A stretch of 6,316 nt of DNA. It comes from Chloroflexota bacterium. Lineage in GTDB: Bacteria; Chloroflexota; Limnocylindria; Limnocylindrales; CSP1-4. The translations under genes and the position numbers were made by a program. The stretch spans positions 1-6,316 of the forward strand of contig JAJYJR010000357.1 in NCBI GenBank assembly GCA_021789355.1, written 5' to 3'. Below the pieces are notes generated by a model. It worked only from the letters and a program-made list of their open reading frames with translations. It did not search any database and was not told the origin of the DNA. Below are positions 2,793 to 6,265 of the stretch, one piece after another. Each line of letters begins with the position of its first letter. Position 1 is the first letter of the stretch.

Positions 2793-2810
2793 CCTGACGA
2801 TAAGAGAAGT
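2793..2810 (+). other. Left half of an interrupted dif-like palindromic site
   Basis: CCTGACGATAA (2793-2803) followed by GAGAAG (2804-2809) and T2810 is the left arm plus centre of a palindrome whose other arm, TTATCGCGGAG, lies at 3403-3413 behind a second copy of GAGAAG (3397-3402). Joining the two across the element restores an 11-6-11 site. Its left arm matches that of the intact site at 4787-4814 in 10 of 11 bases, and its right arm in 8 of 11. The duplicated bases AGAGAAGT (2803-2810) are the left copy of the flanking direct repeat. Confidence 0.65.
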
Positions 2811-2847
2811 CCTGCTTATCCGGTTGACTCAGCCCGCCACAAGATGT
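2811..2847 (+). repeat. Left terminal inverted repeat of the 585-bp element
   Basis: The conserved core TGCTTATCCGGTTG (2813-2826) and CTCAGC (2828-2833) is followed by CCACAA (2837-2842) and ATGT (2844-2847). It pairs with the right repeat at 3359-3395. With the flanking CGATAA at 2798-2803, the sequence CGATAAG...CTTATCCG also forms a local inverted repeat across the junction. Confidence 0.75.
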
Positions 2848-2960
2848 GGGTTCTGAGCCGACCCAGACAAGGTCTGGCCCATCGAACGCAAGGGCCGTGC
2901 CGCAGATCGAGGGCGTCGCCATCCCGTGCCGGCTCTTCGCATCCGCAGATCGATCGTGGC

Positions 2961-3224
2961 TCAGGGGGCCTTTCCGCGTTCCCGTCGCTTACGGGCCCGG
3001 CGTTCCACATAGAACCCCAGGGCAAGGCCGCCGAGCAGCGCCAAGACTGCAATCGGGGCGCCATCCTCGGTCCACACCATGATCCCGGAGAGGATTGCCA
3101 GCGGAAGCCAGTGCCAGTGCACCCGCGCGAGCATGCGCCTCATGGCCAGGCGGCGTGGTCTGGGGGGCAGGTCGGGCAGTCCGGCAGACGAGCTGCGGTC
3201 ATCGCGTCGTTGTGGAACCCGCAT
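2961..3224 (-). CDS. Small two-helix membrane protein carried by the element
   Basis: The 87-residue product has an arginine-rich N-terminus (about residues 1-35), two hydrophobic stretches likely to span the membrane (about 40-51, around WLPLAILSGIMVW, and about 56-72, around IAVLALLGGLALGFYV) and a strongly basic tail (ERRARKRRERGKAP). By the positive-inside rule, both termini would sit in the cytoplasm with a short acidic loop (TEDGA) outside. It is the only plausible gene inside the 585-bp element. The ATG at 3222-3224 is preceded by TAGGAT with a 6-nt gap and no clear ribosome site, the usual layout of a leaderless transcript. A later start at residue 28 or 31 would remove the basic leader and leave the helices unchanged. 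The family is not recognised. A membrane-active small toxin or a simple passenger are both possible, and nothing here decides. Confidence 0.5.
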   Translation of the reverse strand: MRVPQRRDDRSSSAGLPDLPPRPRRLAMRRMLARVHWHWLPLAILSGIMVWTEDGAPIAVLALLGGLALGFYVERRARKRRERGKAP

Positions 3225-3230
3225 GTCCCG

Positions 3231-3236
3231 ATCCTA
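3231..3236 (-). promoter_or_regulatory. Possible -10 box for a leaderless transcript of the small membrane protein
   Basis: TAGGAT on the minus strand ends 6 nt before the ATG at 3224, so transcription would begin about at the start codon. No good -35 hexamer is seen, so this rests on the -10 sequence and the spacing. Confidence 0.3.
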
Positions 3237-3270
3237 TGCCGCCTGCGCGTGCGTGGACACCCCCGTGGGC

Positions 3271-3292
3271 GAGATCGATCTTCACCGATCTC
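3271..3292. repeat. Perfect 7-bp inverted repeat inside the mobile element
   Basis: GAGATCG, 8-nt spacer, CGATCTC. It lies 46 bp upstream of the small membrane protein start and about 65 bp inside the right terminal repeat. It could be an operator for that gene or a protein-binding site of the element. Confidence 0.35.
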
Positions 3293-3358
3293 CAACGCCG
3301 CGATGCGGCACTGCGACGAGCATGCGCGACCGGTCGAGCACGTCAATCTCTGACCACT

Positions 3359-3395
3359 ACATGTTGTGGTCTGCTGAGACAACCGGATAAGCAAG
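3359..3395 (-). repeat. Right terminal inverted repeat of the 585-bp element
   Basis: On the plus strand this reads GCTGAGACAACCGGATAAGCA (3373-3393) next to the outer direct repeat, preceded by the inner blocks ACAT and TTGTGG. It is the inverse of the left repeat at 2811-2847. Its inner part (3360-3388) is also matched by the distant copy at 6237-6265. Confidence 0.75.
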
Positions 3396-3413
3396 AGAGA
3401 AGTTATCGCGGAG
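3396..3413 (+). other. Right half of the interrupted dif-like site
   Basis: The second copy of AGAGAAGT (3396-3403) continues into TTATCGCGGAG (3403-3413), the right arm of the palindrome whose left arm lies at 2793-2803. This half-site defines the element's right border. Confidence 0.65.
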
Positions 3414-3531: not shown

Positions 3532-4659
3532 CTACGCGCCGCCCGTTCCGCCGCCGCCCAGGTCGGATGACGACGGGTGGACCGGCTCCAGGCGCTTGGC
3601 GACGAAGGCGCCGCCCTGATCCTCCAGCAGGAGCTCGCGGCCGTTGAGCTGGTTGTAGCGGGCCTGGACCGCCTCGGCCCCACCCGCGGCGATGACGTGG
3701 GCGCCGTCGGCTCTCGTCTCGACGAGGTACCCAACGCCACACTCGCAGCCCGTTACGAACGCGTGGACCACCCCCTCCATCCCACGATAGCCGAGTAGGG
3801 CCGGGTAGTAGAAGACGTGCTTTCCGCAGAGCGCGTCGCACTCGACCATCGGCCCGACCAGCCGGCCCTCGGCCAGGTCCACGGCGGGGCCCCACGGGCC
3901 TATCGCAAGCGGCGCGTCCTCGACGGTTAGCAGATTCCCGCCGCAGAGCGCGATGAGGTCCGCCTCCCCGAGGCTCGAGCCTGGGGGCCAGACGATGCGC
4001 CCGGCCGGCGGCCACAGCCGCGTCAGCCCGGGGCCCGCCGACAGGCGCACCTCCACGGTCGGGGTCGTGAACCGGACGCCCTGGAGAACGAGCTGCCCGA
4101 CGATGACCGTCATGAGGTAGGCGTGCGGGCGCTCGGCGGGCGAGCCGCCGGCATCGACGACGACCGGCGTCACCTGCTCATGGGCGCCGCCCGGGCCGAG
4201 GTACCGGCCGATCCAGAACTGGCTCGCGTCGAGCGGGGCGGTCGCCTCGCGCGTGTCGTAGAGCGCCCGGTACTCGCCTGGCGGCAGCCCGTAGCCGCTC
4301 GCCCGGTCCCTCTCCGGCGAGACGAGCATGGCCACCAGCGCGGTCTTCTGCGTCCACGCGGCTACGATCCCCAGGTCGGCCTCCTCAACCGCGGCGGGCT
4401 GCCCCAGGATGAGCGGTCTGAGGATCCGGCGCGCCTGTGCCTCGAGCCGGCTCATCCAGCCGCCGTTGCAGGCGGCGCACACGTCGCGCACCGTGACCTC
4501 GAACGGGCGGCCAACACCGAGGGCCCGGGGCAGGCGGTTGAGCCAGCCCGCCTGATGGGAGACCGGGGTGCCATCGAGGCCCATGCCCTTGAGCCAGGCC
4601 GGGAGCACGTGCTCCTTGGTCTGGCGCCCCGCGCGACCGCAGAACACGCACACGCCCAT
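3532..4659 (-). CDS. HNH-type zinc-finger nuclease-like protein with a long C-terminal extension
   Basis: The 375-residue product opens with a treble-clef HNH signature: Cys4-x2-Cys7, then KEHVLPAWL with Glu16-His17 as the likely catalytic base region, and Cys61-x2-Cys64-Asn65 followed by GWM. This CxxC...EHxxPxWL...CxxCN...W arrangement is common in actinobacterial proteins annotated as HNH endonucleases; the substrate is not known. Residues about 70-235 follow the usual body of such proteins, ending in the WPP repeats near 216-226. Residues about 240-375 look like an added domain with a second group of possible metal ligands (Cys274, Cys278, His281, Cys305, Cys307) and a glycine-rich tail. 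The ATG at 4657-4659 has no ribosome site but a TATCCT 8 nt upstream, suggesting a leaderless transcript. The gene stands alone between two dif-like sites (about 3403 and 4800). A defence or mobile-element nuclease role is inference. It could also be a zinc-binding protein without nuclease activity. Confidence 0.8.
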   Translation of the reverse strand: MGVCVFCGRAGRQTKEHVLPAWLKGMGLDGTPVSHQAGWLNRLPRALGVGRPFEVTVRDVCAACNGGWMSRLEAQARRILRPLILGQPAAVEEADLGIVAAWTQKTALVAMLVSPERDRASGYGLPPGEYRALYDTREATAPLDASQFWIGRYLGPGGAHEQVTPVVVDAGGSPAERPHAYLMTVIVGQLVLQGVRFTTPTVEVRLSAGPGLTRLWPPAGRIVWPPGSSLGEADLIALCGGNLLTVEDAPLAIGPWGPAVDLAEGRLVGPMVECDALCGKHVFYYPALLGYRGMEGVVHAFVTGCECGVGYLVETRADGAHVIAAGGAEAVQARYNQLNGRELLLEDQGGAFVAKRLEPVHPSSSDLGGGGTGGA

Positions 4660-4786: not shown

Positions 4787-4814
4787 CGTGACGATAAGTA
4801 TGATTATCGTGATG
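4787..4814 (+). other. Intact dif-like palindromic recombination-type site
   Basis: The arm CGTGACGATAA, the 6-bp centre GTATGA and the arm TTATCGTGATG make an 11-6-11 layout, with a perfect core palindrome ACGATAA/TTATCGT. Sites for XerC/XerD (dif) have this layout, with ATAA and TTAT bordering a 6-bp centre. By hand comparison with the Escherichia coli dif as I remember it, 13 of 22 arm bases agree, mostly the inner ones, so this is similarity of design rather than a clear dif match. It is strikingly AT-rich against its surroundings. Its sister site was split by the 585-bp element. An operator for a dimeric repressor is the main alternative. Confidence 0.5.
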
Positions 4815-5725: not shown

Positions 5726-5910
5726 CTGTGTTACCGATCCTCGCGTGCGCCGCTCGGGGCCAGCGTTGGCACAGGTGTTCGAGCGCCCTGACACCGTCCG
5801 CTCGTGCGCGCCCCTCGGTTCGCCGCGTCTTGCATGGCGATACGGTAGCTGCGGCGGCGACCTCTGCCAGGGGTTCGCACGCCGATGGCAGGCGCGCGCC
5901 GGCGGCCAGT

Positions 5911-5947
5911 CCGGCAGGAGGAGCCCGGCCGCTCCGGCAGGAGGTGG
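5911..5947 (+). repeat. Two CCGGCAGGAGG direct repeats
   Basis: CCGGCAGGAGG occurs at 5911-5921 and 5934-5944. The second copy, extended to CGGCAGGAGGTGG (5935-5947), recurs exactly at 6029-6041. A GGCAGGAG also lies on the minus strand at about 6118-6125. Each contains a perfect Shine-Dalgarno-like AGGAGG, but only the 6029 copy stands at a proper distance from an ATG. Confidence 0.5.
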
Positions 5948-6010: not shown

Positions 6011-6043
6011 CACCATCTCCCCCCTGTGCGGCAGGAGGTGGCT

Positions 6044-6144: not shown

Positions 6145-6219
6145 TGGGGTGGCCCGGGGGACTTGAACTCCCGACCATCGGATCCACACGCCGTGCTCTG
6201 CCGATTGAGCGGAGGCCAG
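6145..6219 (-). tRNA. Degenerate tRNA-His-like sequence (anticodon GTG), possibly an attachment-site remnant
   Basis: On the minus strand the D arm GCTC-AATCGGCA-GAGC is perfect, with G18 G19 in place. The T loop TTCAAGT (6161-6167) is typical, and the 3' end GGGCCAC-C-CCA encodes discriminator C73 and CCA. The anticodon loop reads GTGTGGA, placing T33 and anticodon GTG, and C73 also fits histidine tRNA. Defects are plain: one base is missing between the D stem and the anticodon stem, the anticodon stem has mismatches at both ends, the T stem has an A-C pair, the first acceptor pair is C-C, position 8 is C rather than T, and the expected G at -1 is C. It is therefore more likely a decayed tRNA or an integration remnant than the cell's working tRNA-His. 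Confidence 0.45.
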
Positions 6220-6236: not shown

Positions 6237-6265
6237 CATGTTGGGGTCGGATGAGACAGCCGGAT
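6237..6265 (+). repeat. Third copy of the mobile-element subterminal repeat
   Basis: CATGTTG-g-GGTC-g-G-a-TGAGACA-g-CCGGAT matches the right repeat of the 585-bp element (3360-3388) at 25 of 29 bases, in the same orientation. Similarity ends at CCGGAT, before the AAGCA and AGAGAAGT found at the other copy. It lies 17 bp from the tRNA-like sequence. It may be the end of a related element reaching beyond the window, or an old excised copy. Confidence 0.6.

Follow-up and report, generated by a model that had tools for sequence, protein, structure and literature searches.

A transposase-less 585-bp element with IS1595-type ends at the centre of a palindrome, and target symmetry among its candidate relatives

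The element at positions 2811-3395 (585 bp) of the window, by which we mean the whole 6,316-nt stretch of DNA analysed here, is very probably a non-autonomous IS1595-type element that relies on a DDE transposase acting in trans. It would be classed as a MITE or, should its 87-aa open reading frame (ORF) prove to be a gene, as a mobile insertion cassette. Comparison with candidate relatives also brings out something measurable: IS1595-type insertions prefer targets that are symmetric about the 8-bp duplication. A documented transposon family takes the place of the recombinase element that had been proposed for this locus, and no new recombination mechanism is needed.

The element is bounded by inverted ends of about 37 bp and flanking direct repeats. 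The left end (CCTGCTTATCCGGTTGACTCAGCC..., 2811..2847, plus strand) stands in the same register as the IS1595-type ends of the relatives L056 and L044, and the right end, read on the minus strand, begins CTTGCTTATCCGGTTGTCTCAGCA... (3359..3395); paired over 38 nt, the arms at 2810-2847 and 3359-3396 show 84% complementarity. The 8-bp target duplication AGAGAAGT lies flush against the element on both sides (2803..2810 and 3396..3403). The coordinates and the degree of complementarity bear out the original prediction of an element with inverted ends and perfect direct repeats. That prediction had also placed the insertion in the centre of a palindrome, and indeed, when the element and one repeat are left out, the sequence reads CGATAAGAGAAGTTATCG, that is, CGATAA-GAGAAG-TTATCG, so that the split target has six consecutive complementary pairs. 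Its left arm CGATAA (2798..2803) ends on the first base of the left repeat, and its right arm TTATCG (3403..3408) begins on the last base of the right repeat. Chance is excluded as the origin of this arrangement: the element has a flush 8-bp repeat and ends that match at 21 of 24 bases, whereas the best flush 8-bp pair in 200 first-order shuffles of the window reached only 17 of 24. The position is intergenic, with the left end 151 bp upstream of the GTG start of a DNA methyltransferase ORF (PF01555, 528-2660, minus strand), and the insertion would have changed the upstream region of this gene.

The identity of the element follows from its autonomous relatives. L044, a locus in genome G289, holds a 1041-bp element with the ends CTTGCTTATCCGGTTGTTTCAGCA and CTTGCTTATCCGGTTGTTTCAGTA, flush on both sides with the 8-bp duplication AGAAGTCT; one long open frame fills most of it, and the encoded protein matches the IS1595 transposase model NF033547 at 188.8 bits (cut-off 75) as well as PF12762. 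The right end of the window element and the left end of L044 agree in 23 of 24 bases, leaving a single difference. A second relative, L056, is 1046 bp long, has the end CCTGCTTATCCGGTTGTTTCAGCA on both sides (24/24) and the duplication AGACGCCT on both sides, and differs from the left end of the window element at 3 of 24 bases. The protein match at this locus shares 74% identity with the L044 transposase and falls into two pieces (223 and 88 residues), so this copy may be frame-shifted. The duplication has the same length of 8 bp in the window element and its relatives, whereas its sequence is different in every case among the window and the nearest relatives (AGAGAAGT, AGAAGTCT, AGACGCCT and AGCTAGCT). 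Constant length and varying sequence fit staggered cutting by a transposase rather than a fixed shared core. Within the window element, a tblastn search with the transposase fragment of another relative (L013) detected no transposase remnant (best E 0.15), and since there is no transposase inside, it is not itself an autonomous IS1595 element. The earlier description of a mobile element without an enzyme of its own is therefore upheld: the insertion sequence ends and the duplication are present, and the transposase is missing.

The mechanism that had been proposed instead was a tyrosine recombinase element of the att or dif type, in which the rebuilt target and the circle junction would be sites sharing a 6-bp core. 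The restored target can indeed be written as inverted arms around GAGAAG, and so can the element's ends when joined over one repeat (...GGATAAGCAAG|AGAGAAGT|CCTGCTTATCC...). This much of the claim stands; it is not separate evidence for att sites, because the symmetry of the joined ends arises from the element ends being inverted repeats. The arms adjoining the centre differ, moreover, being CGATAA in the target and GCAAGA/TCCTGC at the joined ends, and one recombinase would need like arms. In favour of a recombinase, the window holds a second copy of the target palindrome, with a different centre; the differing duplications of the window and its nearest relatives leave no constant crossover core. 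In the relatives, whose ends are nearly the same, an IS1595 DDE transposase lies between 8-bp duplications of differing sequence, and in L044, where both ends and the coding frame were read, a DDE transposase takes the place of the recombinase. An autonomous relative coding for such an enzyme had been named beforehand as the finding that would contradict the recombinase reading, and L044 is that relative: with a transposase lying between nearly identical ends, a recombinase is no longer needed. Nor would a circular junction alone argue for one, since a circular form of ISApl4, an IS1595-family element, has been obtained by inverse PCR (PMC12561309). We consider a tyrosine recombinase highly improbable here.

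The inverted repeats might also be a fixed part of a regulatory region that was never mobile, and their intergenic position upstream of the minus-strand methyltransferase gene would suit such a role. We give this explanation practically no credence, as it has to contend with a flush duplication beyond chance, with ends held in common with the transposase-bearing L044, and with an ORF that recurs nearly identically on another contig.

That ORF (87 aa, 2961..3224, minus strand) is the only candidate cargo gene, and its translation has hydrophobic stretches. Neither Pfam (above cut-off) nor NCBIfam gives a match. Among 24 candidates, one relative was found at E <=0.001 (P0121, 98% identical, on a 2509-bp contig); the two proteins differ at 2 of 87 residues, both conservatively (V to I and K to R), and no distant relatives were found. 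This shows that the interior of the element exists elsewhere, and it does not imply selection on the putative protein. The G+C content by codon position (0.74/0.57/0.75) is weakly gene-like, and a 169-aa ORF on the opposite strand overlaps the frame. The claim that the cargo is one small membrane protein gene thus holds for the presence of a single ORF with hydrophobic stretches, and is tentative as to the status of that ORF as a gene. Perhaps it is a real membrane-protein gene, in which case the element would be a mobile insertion cassette with a functional cargo and not an empty MITE, although we lean somewhat against this.

An exact or near-exact search for the end core in genome contigs and viral contigs found nothing; blastn of the element against plasmids returned 15 records, in pieces covering 4-7% of the element, and blastn of its right end against plasmids returned none. 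The window itself contains a third end-like sequence (6237-6265, minus strand) that agrees with the element's right end at 25 of 29 bases, against 19 for the best of 40 shuffles; no partner end was found within the window, and it is perhaps a remnant of another copy. Because this third end shows variable end bases, a relaxed pattern, CCGGYTGWCTCANCNNNCCNCAA, was used for searching, which gave 20 loci in genome contigs and 2 of identical sequence in viral contigs. By eye, 7 of the 20 genome loci have element-like ends (L004, L005, L007, L013, L014, L019 and L022), and the sources of the relatives are Acidobacteria and other metagenome-assembled genomes (MAGs). L013 and L019 are two contig ends of one Acidobacteria MAG, both with GGTGGGTATCCGGTTGACTCACCA and with the same 8 bases, TCGTGAAA, outside the ends; the frame behind the L013 end matches PF12762 and PF12760, the IS1595 transposase domain and its zinc ribbon, respectively. 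L022, from an Acidobacteria MAG (G001), has an end very like that of the window element, for which no partner was found within its locus; G001 lacks a PF12762 match, which was present in 4 of the 5 genomes examined, and TTATCCGGTTGWCTCAGCA with at most one mismatch occurs in 3 of 396 genomes from the phylum of G001. In a Verrucomicrobia MAG (G003, L026-L041), at least 12 near-identical ends, TATCCGGTTGACTCACCA and variants, are found with differing flanks, 6 per strand and many at contig ends, and these make up a multi-copy set of this end type that looks active.

Landing in palindromes is a habit of this IS1595-type group, and the window target fits it. To sample the group, genomes were searched with the L044 transposase, yielding 32 of 162 genomes in the order of G289 and, by phylum, 35 of 396 for G520 (Streptomyces canus) and 18 of 194 for G003, all at E <=1e-30, together with 34 of 297 in the phylum of G002 at E <=1e-40; the four sets overlap, and some genomes are counted in two. 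Among the resulting 124 loci (L044-L167), some represent the same place more than once and some are truncated at contig ends. These loci and the window were scanned for flush 8-bp repeats spaced 450-2600 bp apart whose adjoining ends match at 17 or more of 24 bases. Besides the window, 33 non-redundant relatives passed; they are candidates by their ends and repeat, a transposase between the ends being confirmed for only some. At least 20 of 24 end bases match in 27 of the 33; in shuffles of the loci (five per locus), 1 of 165 reached 17 or more and none reached 20. When flush repeats of 5, 6, 7, 8, 9 and 10 bp were scanned at the threshold of 20, the counts were 4, 31, 3, 31, 1 and 5 loci, of which the 6-bp count is not independent, being an arithmetic consequence of the 8-bp count (one base dropped on each side and both ends moved out by one).

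Symmetry was measured by comparing, in each candidate, the bases equidistant to the left and right of the duplication centre. Over the nine innermost distances, 46.5% of pairs are complementary at the true centre (n=33), compared with 21-31% when the centre is displaced by 1 to 6 bases in either direction (12 shifted centres), an effect whose size is approximate because the relatives, nearly all found with one transposase, are non-independent. At distances 3-11, a mean of 3.97 of 9 pairs are complementary, compared with 2.29 (sd 0.22) when right halves are exchanged among elements, the highest value in 2000 such trials being 3.1. The excess holds for candidates with at least 20 (n=27) and at least 22 (n=15) end matches, and for elements of 990-1150 bp (n=15) and above 1150 bp (n=17); in each of these four subsets, 0 of 2000 permutations reach the observed symmetry. 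A smaller rise appears at a shift of -2, reaching 0.37 in the 15 short elements, where the true centre gives 0.436. Symmetry is strong in L141 (GCCCTGGGC-CAAAGATT-GCCCAGGGC), L079, L117 and L111, and 2 of the 33 (L114 and L134) have none at distances 3-11.

A symmetric target would be expected if two like subunits cut the strands 8 bases apart. In the pathway that we envisage, a DDE transposase supplied in trans would move the window element: its subunits would bind both ends, and the symmetric complex would make an 8-base staggered cut in the target; dyad-symmetric sites would be preferred because the two halves of the complex would each contact one half of the site. No statement of a symmetric-target preference for IS1595 surfaced in the literature at the level of titles and abstracts, and it may already be known. 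The family was reportedly founded in a 2009 paper by Siguier.

The target palindrome deserves attention in its own right. An intact second copy of CGATAA-N6-TTATCG lies at 4792-4809, with 3e-5 exact occurrences expected from base composition; the two window sites precede the start codons of minus-strand ORFs by 138 and 133 bp, and GGCGGAT follows at both, towards the gene. The extended form ACGATAA-N6-TTATCGT has 3 sites in 2 of 149 genomes from the phylum of G520. The idea that the palindrome is common in Actinomycetota was dropped, as those 2 of 149 genomes compare with 1 of 149 for a reversed control. One of the 2 genomes (G635) has ten GATAA-N6-TTATC sites and none of the reversed control, four of them on one 13.3-kb contig (positions 736, 5941, 7740 and 8964 of L172, G635:C118). 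A longer form, GCACGATAA-N6-TTATCGTGC, is over-represented in viral contigs, with 17 loci (L174-L190) compared with 3 and 0 for two scrambled patterns; L174, L185 and L187 look like near-duplicates. The contigs range in G+C from 0.32 to 0.71, and two of the 17 loci have two sites. At 5 of the 19 viral sites (two in L180 and one each in L183, L186 and L189) an ATG with a Shine-Dalgarno-like stretch follows the palindrome at a distance of 18-24 bases, an arrangement suggestive of an RNA hairpin or an operator; most other viral sites and the window site lack this placement. Known RNA families gave 0 matches at 16 palindrome-holding loci, no CGATAA-N6-TTATCG was found within the 9 kb examined around an Amycolatopsis plasmid relative of the window's HNH-like gene, and a literature text search for CGATAA and TTATCG returned nothing relevant.

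Assigning the window sites, whose arms are shorter than the 9-base form, to the viral palindrome class is a guess. It is tempting to speculate that IS1595-type transposases read the dyad symmetry of their targets and that one landed here in a member of a hitherto undescribed, conserved class of (G)CACGATAA-N6-TTATCGTG(C)-like palindromes. Such palindromes would precede genes of this locus at two places and be found again in viral contigs of widely differing base composition, sometimes directly ahead of a ribosome-binding site, a combination that we regard as unlikely. If true, the class would represent a regulatory or recombination site held in common, and the transposon group a natural probe for it. 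An RNA hairpin, an operator and a recombination site are all candidates, and the repeated palindrome is a lead for separate study.

The window appears to be one whole metagenome contig, its methyltransferase being listed on a 6316-base contig. The remainder of the window holds a ResIII match (PF04851, 97-531, minus strand) and a 375-aa ORF (3532-4659, minus strand) with a weak HNH_5 match below cut-off. Adjoining the 3' end of the ResIII ORF, at 61-107, are two tandem copies of GGTGGGGCCARATCnGnnCATCA, 83% alike, which look like an IS21-type end cutting the ResIII gene short. A 16-nt repeat of the type CCnGTCCGGCAGGAGG occurs three times in an otherwise gene-poor stretch (5906-5944 and 6023-6038). 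At 6150-6217 (minus strand) there is a tRNA-like stretch, scoring 20 bits against an Rfam gathering cut-off of 29, in which ARAGORN makes no call and the anticodon, by eye, would read GTG (His); an integrated element may have left this stretch behind as a tRNA fragment. Known RNA families have 0 matches across the window.

MITEs and mobile insertion cassettes are non-autonomous derivatives of insertion sequences. The window element resembles them in having two insertion sequence ends, a target duplication and no transposase; with regard to the multiplicity of MITEs, it is represented by one full copy and a near-identical ORF on a second contig. Both terms are used in PMC3129680. With the IS1595 family, as seen in L044 and L056, it shares the sequence and register of its ends and the 8-bp target duplication, and it differs in having one ORF in place of a transposase gene and in its length of 585 bp rather than about 1040 bp. 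ISApl4 of the same family likewise makes 8-bp duplications (PMC12561309), although its ends, GGGGCTGTACTAGA, differ from those of the window element. Fixed placement relative to a symmetric sequence is not unique to this locus, as the IS1202 family is reported to insert at pdif/dif sites (PMC10132070) and insertion sequences are reported within REP sequences (PMC1525189). The targets in these cases are different, and so, judging by their titles, are the elements; the IS1595-type set shows loose symmetry and target sequences that change from one insertion site to the next.
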